Source of the DNA: Mycobacterium simiae | Lineage (GTDB): Bacteria > Actinomycetota > Actinomycetes > Mycobacteriales > Mycobacteriaceae | Length of the DNA: 64,000 nucleotides | Reading direction: 5' to 3' | Assembly (NCBI RefSeq): GCF_010727605.1 | Contig: NZ_AP022568.1 | Location: 682,001 to 746,000, forward strand | Program-made: the position numbers and the translations under genes | Shown here: positions 19,370 to 33,756 of the stretch, in pieces | Numbering within the stretch: position 1 is the stretch's first letter | Layout: each line of letters starts with the position of its first letter | The notes under the pieces: generated by a model | Databases searched by the model: none | Seen by the model: only the letters and a program-made list of their open reading frames with translations | Told to the model about the DNA's origin: nothing

Positions 19370-20425
19370 ATGCCAACGGAAGCAGCAGTCAAAGCGGAAG
19401 AAACATTGATCCACGTCCTTTGGATCAATGCGGGCCTCAGTTGTGATGGTGATTCGGTGGCGTTGACTGCCGCCACCCAGCCCAGTGTCGAGGAGATCGC
19501 CCTCGGAGCTCTTCCCGGTCTCCCCAAAGTCGCCGTGCACTGGCCCCTGATCGATTTCGAATGCGGCCCCACCGGAGGCGCCGACGACTTCCTGCAATGG
19601 TTCTTCAAGGCCGACCGCGGCGAACTGGAGCCGTTCGTCCTCGTGGTCGAAGGGTCCATTCCGAACGAGAACATCAAGCAGGAGGGTTACTGGTGCGGGT
19701 TCGGCAACGACCCCGCGACCGGCCAGCCGATGACCACCAGCGAGTGGCTGGACCGGCTTGCCCCCAAGGCCACCGCGATCGTCGCCGTCGGCACCTGTGC
19801 AACCTACGGCGGGATCCACGCCATGGCGGGCAATCCGACCGGAGCGATGGGGGTGCCCGATTATCTGGGCTGGGGCTGGCAGAGCAAGGCCGGCATTCCG
19901 ATCGTGTGCGTACCGGGCTGCCCGATCCATCCGGACAACCTGTCGGAAACGCTGACCTATCTGCTCTACATGGCGACAGGTCAGGCGCCGATGATTCCGC
20001 TCGACGATGCGCTGCGCCCGAAGTGGTTGTTCGGCAACACCGTCCACGAAGGCTGCGACCGGGCCGGCTATTACGAGCAGGGCGATTTCGCCACCGAGTA
20101 CGGGTCACCGAAATGCATTGTCAAGCTTGGCTGTTGGGGCCCCGTGGTGAAGTGCAATGTGCCCAAACGAGGTTGGATCAACGGAATCGGTGGTTGCCCG
20201 AACGTCGGCGGCATCTGCATCGGATGCACGATGCCGGGATTCCCCGACAAGTTCATGCCGTTCATGGACGAGCCACCGGGGGGCAAGCTCTCCAGCACCG
20301 CGTCCGGGTTGTACGGCTCCGTGATTCGCAGCTTGAGGGGTATCACGGCCCGCACCGTCGACAAGGAACCGCGCTGGCGCCACAAGGGCACTGAACTCAC
20401 CACCGGGGCACGCCGCACCTGGTAG
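19370..20425 (+). CDS. hhyS: [NiFe] hydrogenase small subunit, group 1h (actinobacterial high-affinity type)
   Basis: 351 residues, GGAAAG eight bases before the ATG. There is no Tat signal, so the enzyme faces the cytoplasm. Iron-sulfur ligands are visible: AGLSCDGDS near residue 25, where the second proximal-cluster ligand is Asp28 instead of Cys (the three-Cys-one-Asp cluster known for this group), then GTCATYGG, VPGCPIHPDN, HEGCDRAG, KLGCWGP, GGCPNVGGICIGC. It passes electrons from the active site of the large subunit to the respiratory chain. Sequence blocks agree with Hhy (hydrogenase-2) of other mycobacteria and Streptomyces that oxidise trace H2, and not with the Huc type. Confidence 0.94.
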   Translation: MPTEAAVKAEETLIHVLWINAGLSCDGDSVALTAATQPSVEEIALGALPGLPKVAVHWPLIDFECGPTGGADDFLQWFFKADRGELEPFVLVVEGSIPNENIKQEGYWCGFGNDPATGQPMTTSEWLDRLAPKATAIVAVGTCATYGGIHAMAGNPTGAMGVPDYLGWGWQSKAGIPIVCVPGCPIHPDNLSETLTYLLYMATGQAPMIPLDDALRPKWLFGNTVHEGCDRAGYYEQGDFATEYGSPKCIVKLGCWGPVVKCNVPKRGWINGIGGCPNVGGICIGCTMPGFPDKFMPFMDEPPGGKLSSTASGLYGSVIRSLRGITARTVDKEPRWRHKGTELTTGARRTW

Positions 20426-20497
20426 GTGCCGGCGCGTGCGTCAAGTTTTCCAGCGATCTTCACGCCACATGCCGTTGGGGCAGAGAGTAGTAATGCG

Positions 20498-22297
20498 ATG
20501 ACAACCATCATTCCCAAGCCCACGCAAGACAAGCAGCAGCCGGGTCAACTCGTCGACATGTCGTGGGACCCGATCACCCGGATCGTGGGCAGCCTAGGCA
20601 TCTACACCAAGATCGACTTCGAGAACCGCCAAGTCGTCGAATGCCACAGCACCTCGTCGATTTTCCGCGGTTACTCGATCTTCATGAAGGGCAAGGACCC
20701 GCGCGACGCCCACTTCATCACCAGCCGCATCTGCGGCATCTGCGGCGACAACCACGCCACCTGCTCCTGCTACGCCCAGAACATGGCCTACGGCGTCAAG
20801 CCGCCACACCTGGGCGAGTGGATCGTCAACCTCGGCGAGGCCGCGGAATACATGTTCGACCACAACATCTTCCAGGAAAACCTGGTCGGAGTGGACTTCT
20901 GCGAGAAGATGGTCGCCGAAACCAACCCCAGCGTGCTCTCGTTGGCCGAGAAGACCCCCGCCCCACAGGCCGGCGCCCACGGCTACCGGACCATCGCCGA
21001 CATCATGCGCTCACTCAACCCGTTCAGCGGCGAGTTCTACCGCGAGGCGTTACAGGTCAGCCGGTGGACCCGGGAAATGTTCTGCCTGATGGAGGGTCGC
21101 CACGTGCACCCCTCCACGCTGTACCCGGGCGGGGTCGGCACCGTGGCGACCATCCAGCTGATGACCGACTACCTGACCCGGCTGATGCGCTACGTGGAGT
21201 TCATGAAGAAGGTCGTGCCCATGCACGACGACCTGTTCGACTTCTTCTACGAAGCGCTGCCCGGCTACCAGAACGTCGGATTGCGCCGCACGTTACTCGG
21301 CTGCTGGGGTTCCTTCCAGGACCCCGAGGTATGCAACTTCAAGTACCAGGACATGGAACGCTGGGGCAACGCGATGTTCGTCACCCCGGGTGTGGTGGTC
21401 GACGGCAAGCTGGTCACCCACTCGCTGGTCGACATCAACCTCGGCATCCGAATCCTTTTGGGCAGTTCATATTACGACGACTGGACGGATCAGGAAACGT
21501 TCGTCAAGACCGATCCGCTGGGCAACGCCGTGGACCGGCGCCACCCGTGGAACCAGCACACCAACCCCCATCCGCAGAAGCGCGACATGGATGGCGGCAA
21601 GTACAGCTGGGTGATGTCGCCGCGCTGGTTCGACGGCAAGGATCATCTGGCATTGGATACCGGCGGCGGTCCGCTGGCCCGGCTGTGGGCGACCGCCCTG
21701 GCCGGCCTGGTCGACATCGGTTACGTCAAAGCGACCGGCAGCAGCGTGCAGATCAACTTGCCCAAGACCGCCCTGTTGGGACCGGTCGAGCTGGAGTGGA
21801 AGATCCCACAGCACGGCAGCAACACGATCGAACGCGACCGGGCGCGCACCTACTTCCAGGCCTACGCCGCGGCCTGTGCGCTGCACTTCGCCGAGAAGGC
21901 GCTCGAGGAGATCCGCGCCGGGCGCACCAAGACCTGGGAGAAATTCGAGGTGCCCGACGAGGCGATCGGCTGCGGCTTCACCGAGGCGGTGCGAGGCGTG
22001 CTGAGCCACCACCTGGTGATCCGGGACGGCAAGATCGCGAATTATCACCCTTACCCGCCCACGCCGTGGAATGCCAACCCACGCGACAGCTTTGGCACAC
22101 CCGGGCCCTACGAGGACGCGGTGCAGGGCCAGCCGATCTTCGAGGAGAACGGCCGGGAGAACTTCAAGGGCATCGACATCATGCGCACGGTGCGCAGCTT
22201 CGACCCCTGCCTGCCGTGCGGTGTGCACATGTATCTGGGGAAGGGCAGAACCCTGGAGAGACTGCACACGCCGACGCAGTCACCTGCCGGGGAGTGA
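20498..22297 (+). CDS. hhyL: [NiFe] hydrogenase large subunit, group 1h
   Basis: 599 residues from the ATG at 20498. The active-site cysteines are in L1 SRICGICGDNH (Cys79, Cys82) and L2 DPCLPCGVH (Cys571, Cys574, His577). Twenty-two residues follow His577; a C-terminal peptide of this kind is normally removed by a maturation protease after nickel insertion, and such a protease is encoded downstream (25947). The protein binds the NiFe(CN)2CO centre and splits H2. The 72-bp gap after hhyS is short and contains no other gene. Group 1h enzymes support survival on atmospheric H2 during starvation. Confidence 0.95.
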   Translation: MTTIIPKPTQDKQQPGQLVDMSWDPITRIVGSLGIYTKIDFENRQVVECHSTSSIFRGYSIFMKGKDPRDAHFITSRICGICGDNHATCSCYAQNMAYGVKPPHLGEWIVNLGEAAEYMFDHNIFQENLVGVDFCEKMVAETNPSVLSLAEKTPAPQAGAHGYRTIADIMRSLNPFSGEFYREALQVSRWTREMFCLMEGRHVHPSTLYPGGVGTVATIQLMTDYLTRLMRYVEFMKKVVPMHDDLFDFFYEALPGYQNVGLRRTLLGCWGSFQDPEVCNFKYQDMERWGNAMFVTPGVVVDGKLVTHSLVDINLGIRILLGSSYYDDWTDQETFVKTDPLGNAVDRRHPWNQHTNPHPQKRDMDGGKYSWVMSPRWFDGKDHLALDTGGGPLARLWATALAGLVDIGYVKATGSSVQINLPKTALLGPVELEWKIPQHGSNTIERDRARTYFQAYAAACALHFAEKALEEIRAGRTKTWEKFEVPDEAIGCGFTEAVRGVLSHHLVIRDGKIANYHPYPPTPWNANPRDSFGTPGPYEDAVQGQPIFEENGRENFKGIDIMRTVRSFDPCLPCGVHMYLGKGRTLERLHTPTQSPAGE

Positions 22298-26442: not shown

Positions 26443-26697
26443 ATGTGCCTGGGAATTCCGGGTCAGGTGATCGAGATGCTGGACGGCTACGAAGGCCAGC
26501 TCGCGTTGGTCGACGTCGCGGGCGAGCAGCGCAAGGTCAATGTCGGCATGCTGCCGGAGGAGACGTTCGCGCCCGGCGACTGGGTGATCATCCACATGGG
26601 CTTCGTGGTCGAAAAGACCGATCGCGCCGGTGCCGACCAGGCGATGGAGGGTCTCGAGTTGATGGGTCGGGGAATCGCACCCTCGGCGGGCGGCTGA
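26443..26697 (+). CDS. hypC: Hydrogenase assembly chaperone HypC (copy 1)
   Basis: 84 residues starting MCLGIPGQVIEM. Removal of Met exposes Cys2, which carries the iron ligand complex with HypD. The beta-barrel core includes LALVDVAGEQRKVNVGML and GDWVIIHMGFVVEK. HypC shuttles the Fe(CN)2CO unit from HypD to the large subunit. It precedes hypF by one base. A second copy lies at 31602, next to hypD, so one may serve as large-subunit chaperone and the other as partner of HypD. Confidence 0.95.
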   Translation: MCLGIPGQVIEMLDGYEGQLALVDVAGEQRKVNVGMLPEETFAPGDWVIIHMGFVVEKTDRAGADQAMEGLELMGRGIAPSAGG

Positions 26698-26698
26698 G

Positions 26699-29086
26699 AT
26701 GACCGGCGCGCCCCTGCTGCTACGGCCCGATCTCGCCACGGGCCACGTCCGGCAGCGCCTCACCGTCACCGGTGTTGTCCAGGGGGTCGGCTTCCGCCCG
26801 TTCGTGCACCGGCTTGCCAACGAGCTGGGCCTGGCCGGTTTCGTCGGAAACGATTGCGGCGCAGTGTTTATCGAAATACAGGGCGAACGGCCCCAGGTGG
26901 CGGAATTCGTGCGCCGGCTCGCCGCCGATACGCCGCCGCTGGCCCGCCTCACCGCGGTCACGTCGACCGACCTGATGACCGACCCGGCATGCGGCGGCCA
27001 ATTTCGGATCGTGGCCAGTACATCGACCGGCATTGGTAAGACGCCCATCTCCTCCGACATCGCGGTGTGCGACGAGTGTGTCGCCGAGCTGTTCGACCCG
27101 GGTAACCGCCGTTACCGGCACCCGTTCGTCACCTGCACCAACTGCGGGCCCCGATTCACCATCATCCGCGAGCTACCCTACGACCGCCCGGCCACCACGA
27201 TGGCTGGGTTCCCGATGTGTGACCGGTGCGCCGCCGAATACCACGATCCCGCCGACCGCCGATTCCACGCCCAACCCATCGCCTGCCCCGAATGCGGTCC
27301 CGCGCTGTGGTTCTCGGCCGGGACCCGACGGGTGACCGGCTCCGATCCGGCATTGGCGGCCGCACAACGGGCATTGGCGACCGGAGCGGTGGTCGCCATC
27401 AAGGGAATCGGCGGCTATCACCTGGCGTGCGCCGTGCAGGACGAGACAACCGTCGGCACGTTGCGCGCCCGAAAGGCGCGCGGCGCCAAGCCGTTCGCCA
27501 TGCTGGTCCGCGACCTCGATGCGGCACGCCGCTACGCCCATCTCGACGCGACCGAGGCGACGGTACTGACGAGCCCCGCTCGCCCGATCGTGTTGTTGCG
27601 GCGCCGCCGGGACGCACCCGTCGCCGAAGCCGTTGCACCGGGCCACCCGCTGCTCGGCTTGATGCTGCCGTACTCCCCCCTCCACCACCTCCTGTTGACG
27701 GAAGTTCCTGAGGGCCCCGGCGCCGAAGCGGCACCGGAAGCGTTAGTGCTCACCAGCGCCAACCGCAGCGGTGAACCGATTTGCTTCACCGACGACGACG
27801 TCGAGACCAGGCTGCCGGAACTCTGCGATGCGCTCCTCGACCACGATCGGCCCATTCACGTGCCCTGTGACGACTCCGTGGTGCGTGTCGTGAGGGAAGA
27901 CGACGAAGTCAGCGAACTCCCGCTGCGCCGGTCCCGCGGCTACGCACCGCTGCCGATCGATCTGAACCTCGATGGGCGCATCGACGGGCGCCGGGCCCCC
28001 AGCGTCCTGGCGGTGGGCGGGGAACTGAAAAACACCTTCTGTCTCACCGACGGTGCGCTCGCCTACCTGTCCGGTCATATCGGGGACATGGCTACCTGGG
28101 AGACCGTTCGTGCATTCGAGCGGGCGATTGGTCAACTCAGCGAGATCCGCGGCACCCCAACACGATTCGCGGCCGACCTGCATCCGGGGTATCACACTCG
28201 CAATTGGGCCGAGCGCCACGGCGGCGGCAGGCCGCTGGATCTGATCCAACACCACCACGCGCATGTCGTGTCGCTGTTGGCCGAACACGGGCGCATCGGC
28301 GAACCCGTCGTGGGCGTGGCCTTCGACGGCACCGGCTACGGTCCCGATCACACCATCTGGGGCGGGGAGATTCTCACCCTCGGTCCGGACAGCCACCGCT
28401 TCGCGCGGGCGGCCCACCTGCGTCCGGCGCCACTGCCCGGCGGCGACGCGGCGATCCGCAATCCATGGCGGGCGGCACTGTCCCAGTTATGGATCGCCGG
28501 CATCGACTTCGGCGGCGATCTCGCACCGGTCGCCGCGGCCACCCCGGATGAATTACGGCTCATCCGCTCGCAATTGGAAACCGGTGCGGGATGTGTCCCG
28601 TGTTCCAGCGTGGGGCGGCTGTTCGACGCGGTCGCGTCGCTGCTCGGGGTGCGGCACCGCGTCGACTACGAAGGCCAGGCCGCCATCGAACTCGAGGCAC
28701 TCGCCGAACGCGCCGACGGCCCCGTTCCCTCGCTACCGCTGCCGGTCCGTCCGAACGGGATGATCGACCCAACCACCCTGATCCAAACGATGGTCTCGGC
28801 GCTGTACGCCGGTACCCCACCCGCGCGGCTCGCCGCCGCGTTCCACCGGGCGATCGCGGCCGCGGTCGCGAAGGCAGTCTCGCTGGTGGCCGGGCCCACC
28901 CGACTGGTCGGCCTCACCGGCGGCGTGTTCCAGAACGTACTGCTGCTACGCCTATGTCGGGAATTGCTGCGAAACAACGGCTTTGAGGTGCTGAGCCACC
29001 ACGTGGTGCCACCCAACGACGGCGGACTGGCGTTGGGACAGGCGGTGATCTCGATGCTGACCGCACTCGAGGAGGCAAAGACATGA
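26699..29086 (+). CDS. hypF: Carbamoyltransferase HypF
   Basis: 795 residues with all expected domains: acylphosphatase (TVTGVVQGVGFRPFVHRLA, residues 20-100), two zinc fingers (CDECVAEL, CTNCGPRF, CDRCAAEY, CPECGPAL, residues 115-200), a YrdC-like domain (IKGIGGYHLACAV, KARGAKPFAMLVRD) and a Kae1-like domain (LIQHHHAHVVSLLAEHG, VGVAFDGTGYGPD, GLTGGVFQNVLLL). It uses carbamoyl phosphate and ATP to carbamoylate the HypE C-terminal cysteine, the source of the cyanide ligands. It overlaps the next gene by four bases. Confidence 0.96.
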   Translation: MTGAPLLLRPDLATGHVRQRLTVTGVVQGVGFRPFVHRLANELGLAGFVGNDCGAVFIEIQGERPQVAEFVRRLAADTPPLARLTAVTSTDLMTDPACGGQFRIVASTSTGIGKTPISSDIAVCDECVAELFDPGNRRYRHPFVTCTNCGPRFTIIRELPYDRPATTMAGFPMCDRCAAEYHDPADRRFHAQPIACPECGPALWFSAGTRRVTGSDPALAAAQRALATGAVVAIKGIGGYHLACAVQDETTVGTLRARKARGAKPFAMLVRDLDAARRYAHLDATEATVLTSPARPIVLLRRRRDAPVAEAVAPGHPLLGLMLPYSPLHHLLLTEVPEGPGAEAAPEALVLTSANRSGEPICFTDDDVETRLPELCDALLDHDRPIHVPCDDSVVRVVREDDEVSELPLRRSRGYAPLPIDLNLDGRIDGRRAPSVLAVGGELKNTFCLTDGALAYLSGHIGDMATWETVRAFERAIGQLSEIRGTPTRFAADLHPGYHTRNWAERHGGGRPLDLIQHHHAHVVSLLAEHGRIGEPVVGVAFDGTGYGPDHTIWGGEILTLGPDSHRFARAAHLRPAPLPGGDAAIRNPWRAALSQLWIAGIDFGGDLAPVAAATPDELRLIRSQLETGAGCVPCSSVGRLFDAVASLLGVRHRVDYEGQAAIELEALAERADGPVPSLPLPVRPNGMIDPTTLIQTMVSALYAGTPPARLAAAFHRAIAAAVAKAVSLVAGPTRLVGLTGGVFQNVLLLRLCRELLRNNGFEVLSHHVVPPNDGGLALGQAVISMLTALEEAKT

Positions 29087-29811
29087 CACCCGTCGCCGCG
29101 ATCGACCGCGGACTGAGCGCCGGGCTGGCCGCCGAGCTAGCCGACGACCTGGCCGCCACGGCCTTCACCATGGCTAAGCGATTCGCCGCGGGTGCCACCA
29201 TGTGGTCGATCGCCCCGTCCTGGGAACCGCATGCCCTGCACATCGCGGTCGAATTCGTCCACCCGGTGATCATGGGCAAACGGGCGTTGCCGGCGGTCGC
29301 GCTCACCGGACCGGATCTGGTGGACCTGGCGCGAGTGTCGGTGCGGCCCGGCGACGTCGTGATCGCCGTTGCCGGTGCCGATGACGCGCAGGCACGTTCG
29401 GTGCTGCGCCGGGCCCCGGCATGGGGAGCCACCACGATCTGGATCGGCAGCGGCACCCGGCCGCCGGCCGGTGCCGCCGATCACGTGCTCTGGCTCGACG
29501 ATCCCGATCCGCGGGTGCCGGCAACCGGCGGATTCGTGCTGTTTTACCACCTGCTGTGGGAGCTCACCCATGTCTGTTTCGAGCACTCTGGGCTGCTCAA
29601 ACCCGAATGCGCCGACGACATTTGCCTCACCTGCAGCGACGAAGGCCGGCTGGGGGAGGTCGTGGGCCCCTCGACCGATGGGCAGGCCGCGGTCCGCACG
29701 GCCCGCGGGGTGCAGAACGTGATCACGACTTTGATCGAGCCGGTCGCCGCCGGCGACCTGGTGCTGGTGCACGCGGGCACGGCAATCAGCAAGATCCAGG
29801 AGGGTCTGTGA
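29083..29811 (+). CDS. SIS-like domain fused to a HypC-like domain
   Basis: 242 residues. Residues 1-150 look like a sugar-isomerase (SIS) fold (LAATAFTMAKRFAAGATMW, PGDVVIAVAGADDAQARSVL, WGATTIWIGSG). From about residue 180, ICLTCSDEGRLGEVV leads to VQNVITTLIEPVAAGDLVLVHAGTAISKI, which follows the HypC/HupF barrel, with CxTC in place of the usual N-terminal Cys. Fusion of a HypC-like barrel to a sugar-binding fold is unusual. It is coupled to hypF in front and shares one base with the next SIS gene. It may be a scaffold in cofactor assembly; function is unproven. Confidence 0.84.
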   Translation: MTPVAAIDRGLSAGLAAELADDLAATAFTMAKRFAAGATMWSIAPSWEPHALHIAVEFVHPVIMGKRALPAVALTGPDLVDLARVSVRPGDVVIAVAGADDAQARSVLRRAPAWGATTIWIGSGTRPPAGAADHVLWLDDPDPRVPATGGFVLFYHLLWELTHVCFEHSGLLKPECADDICLTCSDEGRLGEVVGPSTDGQAAVRTARGVQNVITTLIEPVAAGDLVLVHAGTAISKIQEGL

Positions 29812-30476
29812 TGAGCGACGAACCCACCAACTTCCTCTACCCCTTCATCGACGCCGAAGAGAGCGACCCGCCCTCGCTGCTCGCCGACCTGGCCGCATCA
29901 GCACAGGCCAAGGCGGCCGAGAGCCTGGCGTTGCGGCGCTCGACCCTGCAGGCCAATGCGAAACTGCTGGAGCAGGCGGGCGCCGAGACGGCGCGCCGCT
30001 TCGCCGCCGGCGGGCGAATGTTCACCTTCGGAAACGGCGGCAGCTGTACGGATGCCACCACCCTGGCGAGCTTGTTCGCCCGGCCGCCGACCGGCGGATC
30101 GCTGCCGGCCTGGTCGCTGACCGCCGACCAGGCCATCGTGACCGCTTTGGGCAACGACGTCGGATTCGAGCTGGTGTTCGCCCGCCAGCTGATCGCCCGC
30201 GCGAAGGCCGGCGACGTCGCGATCGCGATGTCCACCAGCGGCAACTCGCCGAACCTGCTCGCCGCGCTGGCCGAGGCGCACCAACGTGGCCTCTACACAA
30301 TCGGTTTCGCCGGCTATGACGGCGGCGCCTTCGTGGACAACCCGAACGTGAACGCCTGCTTCGTCGTTCATTCGCAAAGTGTGCACCGGATCCAGGAATC
30401 GCAAGCGCTGCTCGGTTACCAGCTGTGGCTGACGGTCCACCACCGGCTCGACAACCATGGTGTGGGGGCCGCGTGA
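29811..30476 (+). CDS. SIS-domain protein, GmhA-like, of the hydrogenase cluster
   Basis: 221 residues from the ATG at 29811, one base into the previous stop. The phosphosugar-binding motifs are TFGNGGSCTDATTLASLF and AMSTSGNSPNLLAALAEA, as in phosphoheptose isomerases (GmhA). Typical GmhA has GNGGSAADA, so Cys-Thr here is a change at the substrate loop. No lipopolysaccharide heptose genes are nearby and mycobacteria lack LPS, so a heptose role is unlikely. It lies between the SIS-HypC fusion and hypE, pointing to hydrogenase maturation or a small-molecule ligand. Confidence 0.86.
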   Translation: MSDEPTNFLYPFIDAEESDPPSLLADLAASAQAKAAESLALRRSTLQANAKLLEQAGAETARRFAAGGRMFTFGNGGSCTDATTLASLFARPPTGGSLPAWSLTADQAIVTALGNDVGFELVFARQLIARAKAGDVAIAMSTSGNSPNLLAALAEAHQRGLYTIGFAGYDGGAFVDNPNVNACFVVHSQSVHRIQESQALLGYQLWLTVHHRLDNHGVGAA

Positions 30477-31573
30477 ACAAGTACCTGGCATCGGGACCGC
30501 GCTTCGCCGAAGGCGAGGTGATCGAGCGGATCGAGTCATTCCGGCGGCGCCGGCCGCGGTTGCTCGACGATCACGTGACACTAGCGCACGGCGCCGGCGG
30601 CAAAGCGTCGGCGGCATTGCTGGACGCCGTGTTTGTGCAAGCGTTCCGCAACCCGGCGCTGGAGTCACTGGGTGACGGCGCGGTGCTCACCTTGCCCGGT
30701 GGCCAGCGACTGGCCATGTCCACGGATTCGTTTGTCGTGCAGCCCAGGCGTTTTCCCGGCGGCTCCGTGGGTGCCCTCGCCGTGCACGGCACCTGCAACG
30801 ACCTGGCGATGACCGGCGCGGTGCCCGCTTGGATCTCGGCGGCATTCGTGCTCGAAGAGGGCTTCCCCATCGCCGAGTTGAAAGAGATCGTCGCCGATAT
30901 GGCGACGGCCGCGGCTAATTCCGGCGTGCAGATCGTCACCGGCGACACCAAGGTGGTCCCGACAGGTGCCGCCGACGGCCTGTTCGTCACCACCACCGGA
31001 GCCGGCGTGATTCCGTCCGGGCGGACGCTGTCGGCCGATTCGATTCGTGTCGGCGACAAACTGCTGCTCTCCGGGACGATGGGCGATCATGGCATGGCGG
31101 TCATGCTGGCCCGCGGCGATCTGGCCATCGACGCCGACATCCGCTCCGACACCGCCTCGCTGGGCCCGCTGGTGGAATTGCTGATGGCCGCGGCCCCGTC
31201 AACCCGTTGGATGCGCGATGCCACCCGCGGCGGGGTCGGCACCGTGTGCAACGAGCTGGCCCAGGCGTGCGGCTTCGGGGTGCTGCTCGACGAGCGACGG
31301 CTTCCCGTACAACCCACCGTGACCGGCGCGTGCGAGCTGCTCGGCATCGACCCGCTCTACGTGGCCAACGAAGGCAAGTTCGTCGCCGTCGTCGCGGCCG
31401 AGGAGGCCGAGGCCGGCCTGCGGGCGCTGCGGTCGCACCCGTTGGGCGCCGAGGCCGCCGAAGTAGGGGAAATCGTCGCCGAACCAGTCGAAAGCGTGGT
31501 GCTGCGAACCGGTTTCGGCGGCACCCGGATCGTCGACATGCTGGTCGGTGACCCGTTGCCGAGAATTTGCTGA
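30473..31573 (+). CDS. hypE: Hydrogenase maturation protein HypE
   Basis: 366 residues from a GTG overlapping the previous stop. It has the PurM-like ATP-binding fold (LAHGAGGKASAALLDAVF, LSTD-type motif as MSTDSFVVQP, VHGTCNDLAMTGA, DTKVVPTG). The C-terminus is the flexible GDPLPRIC tail, whose last Cys366 receives the carbamoyl group from HypF and is dehydrated to thiocyanate for HypC-HypD. All key features are intact. It lies 28 bp before the second hypC. Confidence 0.95.
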   Translation: MNKYLASGPRFAEGEVIERIESFRRRRPRLLDDHVTLAHGAGGKASAALLDAVFVQAFRNPALESLGDGAVLTLPGGQRLAMSTDSFVVQPRRFPGGSVGALAVHGTCNDLAMTGAVPAWISAAFVLEEGFPIAELKEIVADMATAAANSGVQIVTGDTKVVPTGAADGLFVTTTGAGVIPSGRTLSADSIRVGDKLLLSGTMGDHGMAVMLARGDLAIDADIRSDTASLGPLVELLMAAAPSTRWMRDATRGGVGTVCNELAQACGFGVLLDERRLPVQPTVTGACELLGIDPLYVANEGKFVAVVAAEEAEAGLRALRSHPLGAEAAEVGEIVAEPVESVVLRTGFGGTRIVDMLVGDPLPRIC

Positions 31574-31601: not shown

Positions 31602-31874
31602 ATGTGTCTTGGCATTCCAGGACGAATCGTCGAAATCACCGACCCCGCCAACTATCTGGCGAAGGTCGACGTCAGCGGCGTGCAACGGACAATCAGCGTG
31701 CGGCTGCTGGAAAACGACATGCCGGACCCCGACGAGTGGGTGCTGGTCCACGTGGGCTTCGCGATGGCCAAGATCGACGAGACCGAGGCGATGCGCACCT
31801 TGGCCGCGATCCAGAAGCTCGGCGACGCCTACGCCACCGAGATGGCGGCCTTCGACTCGTCGGCGATCGGCTAA
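31602..31874 (+). CDS. hypC: Hydrogenase assembly chaperone HypC (copy 2)
   Basis: 90 residues starting MCLGIPGRIVEI with AAGGAGGTG six bases before the ATG. Cys2 is kept, along with VDVSGVQRTISVRLL and DEWVLVHVGFAMAKID. The first copy (26443) shares this plan but differs over most of the barrel, so they are diverged paralogues rather than a recent duplication. The C-terminal helix is longer here (MRTLAAIQKLGDAYATEM). Placed 11 bp before hypD, it is the likely HypD partner. Confidence 0.94.
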   Translation: MCLGIPGRIVEITDPANYLAKVDVSGVQRTISVRLLENDMPDPDEWVLVHVGFAMAKIDETEAMRTLAAIQKLGDAYATEMAAFDSSAIG

Positions 31875-31885
31875 GGAGGATCGAC

Positions 31886-33016
31886 GTGAAATTTGTTGAC
31901 GAATTCCGAGATCCCGCCGCGGCGCGAAAGCTACTCGTGGCCATCGAGCACCTGGCCGGGACCGACGGCGAACACTTCAAGTTCATGGAAGTGTGCGGCG
32001 GGCATACGCACACCATCTACCGGCACGGCATCGAGCACCTGTTGCCCGACACCGTCGAACTGGTGCACGGCCCGGGATGCCCAGTCTGCGTGATTCCGAT
32101 GGGCCGCATCGACGACGCGATGTGGCTGGCCGCGCAGCCGGGCGTGATCTTCACCTGCTTCGGCGACATGATGCGGGTGCCCGGATCGAACGGAAGTCTG
32201 TTGGACGCCAGAGCCCGCGGCGCCGATGTGCGCTTCGTGTACTCGCCGCTGGACGCGCTGAAGGTTGCGATCGACAACCCAGACAAACACGTCGTGTTCT
32301 TCGCAATCGGGTTCGAGACCACCGCCCCGTCGACCGCGGTCACGCTGGTGCGGGCGCGCGATCTGGGGCTGGCCAACTTCACCGTGTTCTGCAACCACGT
32401 CACGATCGTCCCGCCGATCAAGGCGATCCTGGAATCACCGGATCTGCGGCTGTCGGGCTTCATCGGGCCCGGCCACGTGTCGACGGTGGTGGGCAATCGC
32501 CCCTACCGGTTCGTTCCTGAGGTATATCGAAAGCCGTTGGTAGTGACCGGGTTCGAGCCACTTGACATCCTGGCGTCGGTCGCGATGCTACTCCGTCAGA
32601 TTCGTGAAGGCCGCTGCGAGGTGGAGAATCAATACCAGCGGGTGGTGCCCGAGCACGGCAACCCCGCCGCCCTGGCCCTGATGGGCAAGGTGTTCGCGCT
32701 GCGGCCGCACTTCGAATGGCGCGGCCTGGGCTTCATCTCCCAGAGCGCGCTACGGCTGCACGACGATTTCGCGGAATACGACGCAGAGCTGCGCTTCGCG
32801 ATGCCGGGCGTGCGGGTCGCCGACCCCAAGGCCTGTCAGTGCGGCGAGGTCCTCAAGGGTGTGCTCAAGCCTTGGGAATGCAAGGTTTTCGGCACCGCCT
32901 GCACGCCGGAGACCCCGATCGGCACCTGCATGGTGTCCCCTGAGGGCGCATGCGCGGCCTACTACAACTTCGGCCGGATGCATCGAGACGCCGTCAAACT
33001 TGTGGGGCGCACTTGA
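31886..33016 (+). CDS. hypD: Hydrogenase maturation iron-sulfur protein HypD
   Basis: 376 residues from a GTG with a perfect AAGGAGG upstream. Conserved blocks are MEVCGGHTHTIYRHG with the catalytic Cys, HGPGCPVCVIPM, FFAIGFETTAPSTA, GFEPLDIL, and the C-terminal [4Fe-4S] ligands in KACQCGEVL, FGTACTPETPIGTCMVSPEGAC. HypD is the platform where cyanide and CO are attached to iron in the HypC-HypD complex. It overlaps the following gene by four bases. Confidence 0.96.
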   Translation: MKFVDEFRDPAAARKLLVAIEHLAGTDGEHFKFMEVCGGHTHTIYRHGIEHLLPDTVELVHGPGCPVCVIPMGRIDDAMWLAAQPGVIFTCFGDMMRVPGSNGSLLDARARGADVRFVYSPLDALKVAIDNPDKHVVFFAIGFETTAPSTAVTLVRARDLGLANFTVFCNHVTIVPPIKAILESPDLRLSGFIGPGHVSTVVGNRPYRFVPEVYRKPLVVTGFEPLDILASVAMLLRQIREGRCEVENQYQRVVPEHGNPAALALMGKVFALRPHFEWRGLGFISQSALRLHDDFAEYDAELRFAMPGVRVADPKACQCGEVLKGVLKPWECKVFGTACTPETPIGTCMVSPEGACAAYYNFGRMHRDAVKLVGRT

Positions 33017-33756
33017 GCGACACGATGATCCGGCGCGGCGCGGACATGTTCGCCCGCTACGCGCATGCGCCCAACGCGCTGGGCTACTGCGGGCCACCAC
33101 TGGGAGCGACATTGCGCGCCGGCTCGGTCGCCGAGATACGCGCTGCGGCGGCAAAGTTCTCCGGAGCCTGGCCGTACCTGCGGGTGCTGGCCAGCCTGAG
33201 CGGGATCGACGACCCGCTGGACTACCGGGTCGTCGAATCGTATTGGCTGGGCGGCGGGATCGGTGCAGCGCTGGACCCGGCCCAGTTCCTCGAGGCGTTG
33301 CTGGCGATCATCGGCCCGCAGGCCGGGCACTACTGGTCGCACCTCACGCCGGACCTGGCCCGCGAGGCCGCCGGCAATCACTGCTTCCACGTCTTCGGCG
33401 TCTATCCGTGGACGCGATTTCTCGGTCGGGGCGCCGACCAGCATCCGCTGGACGTGCTGGACAATTGCCGAATAGCTTGGGGCACCGTGATTTCCCGCAC
33501 CGGCGACACGGTCGAATTACGGTGCCGGCGGTTGGTCTGCGACGGTGACGGTCTCGCGCTGGGCGAACCGGCGGTGCGCGCCGTGGACGTCTGGGCCGAC
33601 GGGCACAGCGCGCTGCCCGAGGTGGCCCTCGGCGACGAGGTCGCAGTGCACTGGGACCGGTTGTGCGGCCGGTTGGACGCCGAGCAGGCACGCAGACTCG
33701 CCGACAGCACCCACCGCCAATTGCGGGTGACCAGCCGGCGGCTGGCCCGAGTCTAG
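33013..33756 (+). CDS. DUF6390-family protein at the end of the hydrogenase operon
   Basis: About 247 residues. A TTG at 33013 overlaps the hypD stop by four bases as at other junctions here; an ATG at 33025 is the alternative start and no ribosome binding site decides between them. The N-terminus DMFARYAHAPNALGYCGPPLG is characteristic, followed by YWLGGGIGAAL, NHCFHVFGVYPWTRFLGRG and a C-terminal basic region. There are no membrane segments. Proteins of this kind accompany group 1h hydrogenase loci; the role is unknown. The conserved H and C residues could bind metal or cofactor. Confidence 0.82.
   Translation: MSDTMIRRGADMFARYAHAPNALGYCGPPLGATLRAGSVAEIRAAAAKFSGAWPYLRVLASLSGIDDPLDYRVVESYWLGGGIGAALDPAQFLEALLAIIGPQAGHYWSHLTPDLAREAAGNHCFHVFGVYPWTRFLGRGADQHPLDVLDNCRIAWGTVISRTGDTVELRCRRLVCDGDGLALGEPAVRAVDVWADGHSALPEVALGDEVAVHWDRLCGRLDAEQARRLADSTHRQLRVTSRRLARV

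Follow-up and report, generated by a model that had tools for sequence, protein, structure and literature searches.

Paired SIS-fold proteins of hydrogenase maturation clusters divide the conserved residues of a GmhA-type site and are associated with one HypD clade

In a stretch of 64,000 nucleotides from Mycobacterium simiae (contig NZ_AP022568.1, positions 682,001 to 746,000; hereafter the window), two genes between hypF and hypE encode proteins with a sugar isomerase (SIS) fold, which do not belong to the HypA-F set of hydrogenase maturation proteins. Both points had been made in a first-pass annotation and hold. We find that these proteins, P1 and P2, represent specialised halves of an SIS protein of GmhA origin that was duplicated, that the conserved residues of the GmhA site are divided between the halves, and that the family to which they belong, here called Hyp-SIS, is associated with one HypD clade across phyla. 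The pair probably forms a composite pocket dedicated to HypD, and both proteins are strong candidates for taking part in a step still lacking from the known assembly of the Fe(CN)2CO unit.

29083..29811, + strand: P1, fusion of an SIS-N domain and a HypC-like barrel, 242 amino acids (open reading frame, Pfam, homology)
29811..30476, + strand: P2, GmhA-like SIS-C half, 221 amino acids (open reading frame, Pfam, GmhA structures)

Division of GmhA site residues between P1 and P2

P1 consists of an SIS-N domain (residues 19-170, approximately), a linker with a CxTC motif (Cys181 and Cys184) and a HypC-like barrel (about 185-240) that carries His230 within a VHAG motif. The SIS domain gave no Pfam match. 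Its fold was assigned by homology: a tblastn alignment of residues 32-171 to the SIS protein encoded in a Thermus hyp cluster has 35.8% identity (E-value 1e-5), and a profile-profile comparison matched P1, over 140 columns with 37% identity, to the N-terminal half of double-SIS proteins at 99.3% probability. The equivalents of the GmhA metal ligands are His53 and Glu57, and His50 and His60 are also present. Residues 199-240 match the Pfam model HupF_HypC with 38.6 bits (cut-off 28.5), while the C-terminus stays below the NCBIfam HypC model TIGR00074 (29.3 versus 48 bits). Like the HypC/HybG/HupF chaperones, the barrel passes the Pfam cut-off and keeps the His of VHxG; P1 differs from them by the TIGR00074 result, by the SIS fusion and by a cysteine pair that is internal (C181xxC184) instead of lying in an N-terminal MCxxxP, the N-terminal Met-Cys motif of HypC being absent. 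The fusion of an SIS fold with a HypC-like barrel and the internal CxTC, both read from the window by the first-pass annotation, are thereby confirmed, and the two cysteines are invariant in 41 aligned P1 relatives. Among 80 loci chosen by P1 similarity (L001-L080, the best 80 of 199 relatives from a scan of genome contigs; relatives in other phyla came chiefly from plasmids and protein matches), 79 have the pattern CxTCxD and all 80 the pattern H..H...EF. The homology lists comprise the best 120 of 5329, 4558 and 8000 matches. The Mycobacterium of the window is close to M. sherrisii, with 97% protein identity for P1.

P2 matches the Pfam model SIS_2 (PF13580; 55.4 bits, cut-off 27, E-value 9e-15) and solved GmhA structures (E-value 3.9e-27), in agreement with its earlier assignment to the SIS fold. 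The GmhA-like phosphosugar motif described for it stands as far as the phosphate loops are concerned (GNGGS 74-78, STSGNS 141-146), but the metal site does not follow: the positions of the GmhA His/Glu/His ligands hold Thr84, Leu88 and Gln198, and only Gln195 is kept, the equivalent of Q175, the zinc ligand that a neighbouring GmhA subunit donates. Because of this loss, P2 by itself is unlikely, as judged from its residues, to be a working phosphosugar isomerase. The replacement of Ala-Ala by Cys-Thr in GNGGSCTDA, also noted earlier, is present in the window but not fixed in the family, where the pair after GNGGS is CT in 66 of 78 loci and ST in 12; a fixed catalytic cysteine at this place is therefore ruled out.

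Databases name the relatives of P2 D-sedoheptulose-7-phosphate isomerase, and P2 might be seen as an ordinary GmhA for cell-surface heptose that lies in the operon by accident. P2 is, however, far under the NCBIfam GmhA equivalog cut-offs (109/276 bits at best, then 99.9/209, 79.5/265 and 70/320), and these scores, the separate clade described below and the lost metal ligands rule out an ordinary heptose isomerase. With hyp genes adjoining in 79 of the 80 loci, we regard this explanation as extremely improbable. The name gmhA has probably been given to a number of genes whose products are no heptose isomerases.

In GmhA, zinc is bound by H61, E65 and H183 of one monomer and by Q175 of its neighbour (PMC5387315). 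The numbering for the Burkholderia pseudomallei enzyme, used below, is H64, E68, Q175 and H183, with an active site between three chains (PMC5705639). The single Hyp-SIS proteins of Proteobacteria have all four metal ligands (6/6) and also the phosphate residues, except for one Ser to Ala change in Methylocystis. N halves have H64 and E68 in 37/37, Q175 in 32/37 and H183 in 15/37 sequences; the Ser of GNGGS and a complete STSxxS set each occur in 0/37. C halves have the phosphate residues and Q175 in 37/37 and H64 and E68 in 0/37, and Gln replaces H183 in 36/37. Of the four ligands, the mycobacterial type of P1 (four rows) retains H64 and E68, both Q175 and H183 having been lost; P2 of this type (three rows) keeps the phosphate residues and Q175 and nothing else of the site. 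These rows are related and not independent, some being near-identical (G088 and G119 share their HypD); G129 was entered twice and L083_P1N was not counted. Such a division of conserved residues is expected for shared composite sites and hard to explain if each protein worked alone. Hyp-SIS proteins resemble GmhA in fold and phosphate loops, with the whole ligand set in the singles, and differ from it by their clade, their location in hyp clusters, the low equivalog scores of P2 and the splitting of the site over P1 and P2.

The same residues could be explained by a metal or precursor scaffold without catalysis, in which the His and Glu of SIS-N would hold Fe(II) or a partial iron unit, the CxTC domain would pass it to HypD and SIS-C would be structural. 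The His53/Glu57 equivalents in 37/37 N halves, from which the phosphate site is lost, and the invariant Cys181 and Cys184 would fit this, as would the separate CxTC HypC protein that adjoins hypC and hypD in various Actinomycetota as well as in Thermus and Sulfobacillus. Cofactor assembly is also said to have several unresolved steps (PMC12134894). A pure metal scaffold would, on the other hand, have no need of the phosphate-site residues conserved in 37/37 C halves, and the Proteobacterial singles retain the whole metal set, so we find a scaffold rather unlikely.

Duplication, fusion and splitting of the family

Hyp-SIS proteins are present in hyp clusters of Actinomycetota, Thermus, Sulfobacillus and Proteobacteria. 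A Thermus thermophilus plasmid encodes a 392-residue SIS protein directly 3' of hypE, and P1 and P2 each align to a different half of it. The arrangement on a Sulfobacillus plasmid is the same, with an interrupted reading frame: an unannotated double-SIS gene of Sulfobacillus acidophilus (L082, 14857-16045) lies between hypE and a glutaredoxin gene and is broken near its end, which may reflect a damaged gene or, indistinguishably, a sequencing error. All 8000 candidates from a search with the Thermus protein had E-values below 0.001; the best 120 of them are 390-404 residues long with two SIS Pfam domains each, and the names among them include Thermus, Gemmatimonadota and Silvibacterium. In some Actinomycetota the two halves are tandem genes, and the Proteobacteria that we read have one SIS gene, directly before hypD and after hypC or hypF.

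In a maximum-likelihood tree of 47 SIS rows, all Hyp-SIS sequences formed one group, separate from the three GmhA rows and the two non-hyp rows (support 100/100). An N clade including P1 (100/99) and a C clade including P2 (90/93) were joined to each other (84/84), and the Proteobacterial singles branched outside both. Of nine double-SIS loci tried, the tree includes the two that the split pattern caught, and of three non-hyp rows it includes two. P1 and P2 thus share a common ancestor as the halves of one duplicated SIS protein. The earlier description of two separate SIS proteins was right about the fold, but since Thermus and other organisms encode both halves in a single gene, the pair is better read as one unit. 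Other two-SIS proteins (the isomerase domain of GlmS/GFAT, tagatose-6-phosphate isomerase-like proteins and glucokinase regulatory protein, GKRP) have 9-15% identity, and the Hyp double-SIS protein differs by having no amidotransferase part and by its place next to hyp genes.

Outside the P1-type fusions, a CxTC HypC-like protein is encoded by a free gene beside hypC and hypD, as in Thermus, in Sulfobacillus and in various Actinomycetota. In L081 (12480-12707) and L082 (12422-12655) it has an extended N-terminus and its gene lies between hypC and hypD. This protein is a separate form of the C-terminal domain of P1. With tandem or fused SIS halves on one side and free CxTC HypC genes on the other, P1 appears as a combination of two parts that are found separately elsewhere. 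Genome G112 has its own distant fusion of SIS-N with a CxTC HypC domain (40% identity to P1).

A small glutaredoxin-like protein is encoded near the double-SIS gene in L081 (16046-16306), L082 (16048-16275), L175, L178 and L187, and is named as a member of the Uxx-star family in Thermus. A function as redox partner of the SIS module is possible.

Association with one HypD clade

Among 216 Actinomycetota genomes, HypD was found in 119, a P1-like SIS protein in 31, HypX in 7 and COX1 in 117. The SIS protein occurred in 30 of the 119 genomes with HypD and in 1 of the 97 without it (G168; Fisher p 6e-8, not corrected for relatedness). When scored against the HypD of the window, the HypD proteins formed two groups, with at least 523 and at most 425 bits, and SIS was found in 30 of the 36 genomes of the upper group and in none of the other 83 (two of these are fragments). 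For G139 and G159, which belong to the upper group and have no SIS, the contigs end just past hypE, a frequent site of the SIS genes.

A HypD tree, made by a quick method with plasmid and E. coli rows added, gave a clade of 54 rows with SH-aLRT support (Shimodaira-Hasegawa-like approximate likelihood ratio test) of 96. It holds 45 SIS rows, nine non-SIS rows and no HypX row, whereas the 78 rows outside comprise no SIS and seven HypX rows. Eight long-branch or short rows had been dropped, and the plasmid rows were partly chosen by content. In the labelling, SIS would take precedence over an adjacent HypX; no such row exists. In an earlier tree the HypD fragments of G045 and G128 were omitted, and only five of L001-L080 were used. 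On plasmids, 19 records were seen with SIS in the hyp cluster, and when 122 HypD records are ranked these 19 take the top places (61-91% identity, against 57% for the record that follows). The plasmid comparison draws on the best 60 of 83 SIS and the best 60 of 122 HypD records; for the 103 other HypD records neighbourhoods were read for a few, and absence of SIS elsewhere comes from the SIS searches (20 of 137 and 60 of 83 matches listed). Hyp-SIS is accordingly associated with one HypD clade across phyla, and the link to hyp genes seen in the window holds far beyond it, as a monophyletic family. HypD positions fixed in the SIS clade are, we presume, partly shared with E. coli HypD, and we draw nothing from them.

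GKRP and DiaA use SIS domains without catalysis. By analogy, the pair could be a sensor that reads a sugar phosphate of central carbon metabolism and gates HypD or hydrogenase maturation. The metal ligands kept in 6/6 singles do not favour a sensor, and a general regulator would explain the link to a single HypD clade less well than a HypD partner would; we consider this role improbable.

Gene order and selection

The other features of the locus are as follows.

19370..22297, + strand: hydrogenase small and large subunit genes (domain matches)
26443..26697, + strand: first free hypC (open reading frame and domain match)
26699..29086, + strand: hypF, overlapping P1 via ATGA
30473..31573, + strand: hypE, C-terminal PRIC, overlapping the P2 stop
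31602..31874, + strand: second free hypC, start taken from the MCLGIP motif
31886..33016, + strand: hypD of the SIS-associated clade, start approximate
33025..33756, + strand: DUF6390 protein, neighbour of hypD, start approximate

The genes hypC, hypF, P1, P2, hypE, hypC, hypD and DUF6390 are all on the + strand, 3' of the hydrogenase genes. We take the hydrogenase to be of the group 1h (Hhy) type; its large subunit has a 94% identical counterpart in genome G097. The ATG of P1 overlaps the hypF stop as ATGA, the ATG of P2 overlaps the P1 stop as TGATG and the P2 stop overlaps the hypE GTG at 30473, which agrees with the translational coupling to hypF and hypE that had been proposed. Ranking open reading frames by their stop positions, we found the order hypF-P1-P2(-hypE) in all 79 loci that show neighbours and the full order hypF-P1-P2-hypE-hypD in 76 of the 80. 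In the remaining four, hypD was not found in two, hypE and hypD in one, and P1 stood alone in one. Over eight pairs, the ratio of nonsynonymous to synonymous substitution rates was 0.12-0.19 for P1, 0.15-0.27 for P2 and 0.04-0.09 for HypD, so both P1 and P2 are under purifying selection. A chance neighbourhood is excluded by the conserved order and the selection on both genes, together with the HypD-clade association.

The location of the pair in the window, flanked by hypF and hypE and overlapping both, and the conserved phosphate-binding residues of the C halves might also indicate handling of carbamoyl phosphate, or of a carbamoyl intermediate between HypF and HypE, by the phosphate loops. 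However, the use of carbamoyl phosphate and the transfer of its carbamoyl group to HypE are already accounted for by HypF (PMC12134894), and in Proteobacteria the SIS gene immediately precedes hypD and follows hypC or hypF, which makes this function highly improbable.

DUF6390 genes also occur in Pseudonocardia, on an M. intracellulare plasmid and in some other hyp loci. A nickel transporter of the NixA/HoxN type (242 bits) is encoded 5' of the small subunit gene, between 15001 and 19370.

HypX and hydrogenase type

Under oxic conditions CO synthesis requires HypX, a protein with formyltransferase and enoyl-CoA hydratase-like domains; the source of CO in anaerobic maturation is called unresolved (PMC12134894). 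Neither P1 nor P2 gave a Pfam match to these domains, and HypX and Hyp-SIS are unrelated. They are alike as optional extras of hyp clusters, and HypX replaces SIS beside the same hydrogenase type in three genomes. HypX was absent from all SIS-bearing hyp clusters that we read. It was not found in 50 mycobacterial genomes with P1 by a query that did match in the 216-genome sample, including Pseudonocardia G002, which is not among the 50. It is present on 49 plasmid records. HypX relatives away from hyp genes occur in L293 and L294, and others in G053 and G218, genomes without a HypD match; this suggests that HypX-like enzymes have another use, and it makes the presence of HypX in a genome a poor marker by itself.

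Genomes with a group 1h-type hydrogenase were taken as those with a large subunit at least 66% identical to that of the window. Of these 23 genomes, 17 have SIS (16 by the P1 search, and G032 as read in L155), one of which, G087, carries HypX as well. G027, G127 and G166 have HypX and no SIS, and G012, G042 and G176 have neither. For G012, genes for hhySL, hypA, hypB, hypC and DUF6390 were seen (L154), and no HypD match was found in the genome.

Proposed role and earlier reports

GmhA is among the elevated maturation proteins of the Acidithiobacillus ferrooxidans hup operon (PMC7735108), and an SIS domain cluster is listed in hydrogenase neighbourhoods (PMC12727194). The gmhA gene MSMEG_2706 lies by hypE among the hydrogenase genes of M. 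smegmatis (PMC5445863). A predicted GmhA-HypD-HypE association was called unclear (PMC3231954); the GmhA in question is CAC3054, which may or may not be kin to Hyp-SIS. The occurrence of GmhA next to hyp genes is thus already in print, and in the accessible parts of these four papers we found neither the pairing of the halves nor the HypD link. There, and among the papers that our literature searches listed, we also found no published role for a GmhA-like SIS protein beside hyp genes, and the part of PMC6883350 available to us does not mention an isomerase.

We propose that P1 and P2 would form a hetero-oligomer with one GmhA-type pocket. A metal would be held by His53 and Glu57 of P1, with Gln195 of P2 completing the coordination, and the phosphate would be anchored by the P2 loops. 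The fused CxTC HypC-like domain might then dock the pocket onto HypD, the site of Fe(CN)2CO assembly, where a small phosphorylated metabolite would react at the metal and a one-carbon (CO) unit would be passed to the HypD-bound iron. The steps of this scheme differ in probability. That the pair forms a composite pocket dedicated to HypD is likely on the residue and clade patterns. That the pocket also carries out small-molecule donor chemistry is finely balanced, leaning towards doubtful. A metal-assisted reaction that supplies CO from a phosphorylated metabolite, in a role like that of HypX, is the function that we find most probable, but it is a tentative guess and by itself less likely than not. 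In its most specific form, with P1 and P2 as a second, HypX-independent CO source, a split metalloenzyme that uses a metal-bound enediol as proposed for GmhA and delivers the unit to iron between HypD and the fused domain, the proposal is unlikely.

A role in providing the CO ligand, which the first-pass annotation had raised beside a scaffold, is plausible and compatible with the lack of HypX in these clusters. We favour a donor of CO because HypA-F are not known as a source of this small molecule, because the tested mycobacteria lack HypX and because either gene can stand beside the same hydrogenase type. If this is correct, P1 and P2 would be the way in which aerobic mycobacteria without HypX build an oxygen-insensitive hydrogenase. 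Mycobacterial hydrogenases of the atmospheric-hydrogen type have a maturation set that belongs to a HypD lineage with an SIS partner and, in the clusters read, no HypX, and named genes and residues are now attached to an open step of the cofactor pathway.

Several observations weigh against this proposal. Within the HypD clade, G148, G161, G167 and G170 have no recognisable SIS though hyp genes surround hypD, and HypD proteins of E. coli, Azospirillum and Octadecabacter fall inside it without SIS, on long branches of unsure placement. The Octadecabacter plasmid cluster nearly equals that of Sphingopyxis, yet it has no SIS and its plasmid no HypX. G042 and G176 have a group 1h-type hydrogenase and neither gene, and 9 of the 30 SIS genomes lack COX1, the one oxidase searched for, so a clear tie of SIS to aerobic life is not seen and a strict one is ruled out. 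Clusters of aerobes with neither gene and SIS genomes without COX1 speak against a strict requirement of SIS for CO. Conversely, 9 of the 19 SIS plasmids also carry HypX, at least about 54 kb away, and G002 and G087 hold both on different contigs, which rules out strict exclusion at the level of the cell. In Cupriavidus necator and B. guangzhouense HypX sits in a second hyp cluster, and for the remaining plasmids with both genes two HypD places point to the same. The mycobacterial pair has lost H183, and its P1 has lost Q175, so the pocket may bind without catalysing. We know of no chemistry that links a phosphosugar to the CO ligand. Our doubts about the CO reading come from the clusters that have neither SIS nor HypX, from the SIS genomes that lack COX1, from the Octadecabacter comparison and from these missing ligands.

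In the Octadecabacter (L291) and Sphingopyxis (L297) clusters the order of hydrogenase and hyp genes is nearly alike, with SIS between hypC and hypD in Sphingopyxis only. Both have a gene annotated HflD between hypE and hypA (L291, 9180-9932; L297, 12858-13577).

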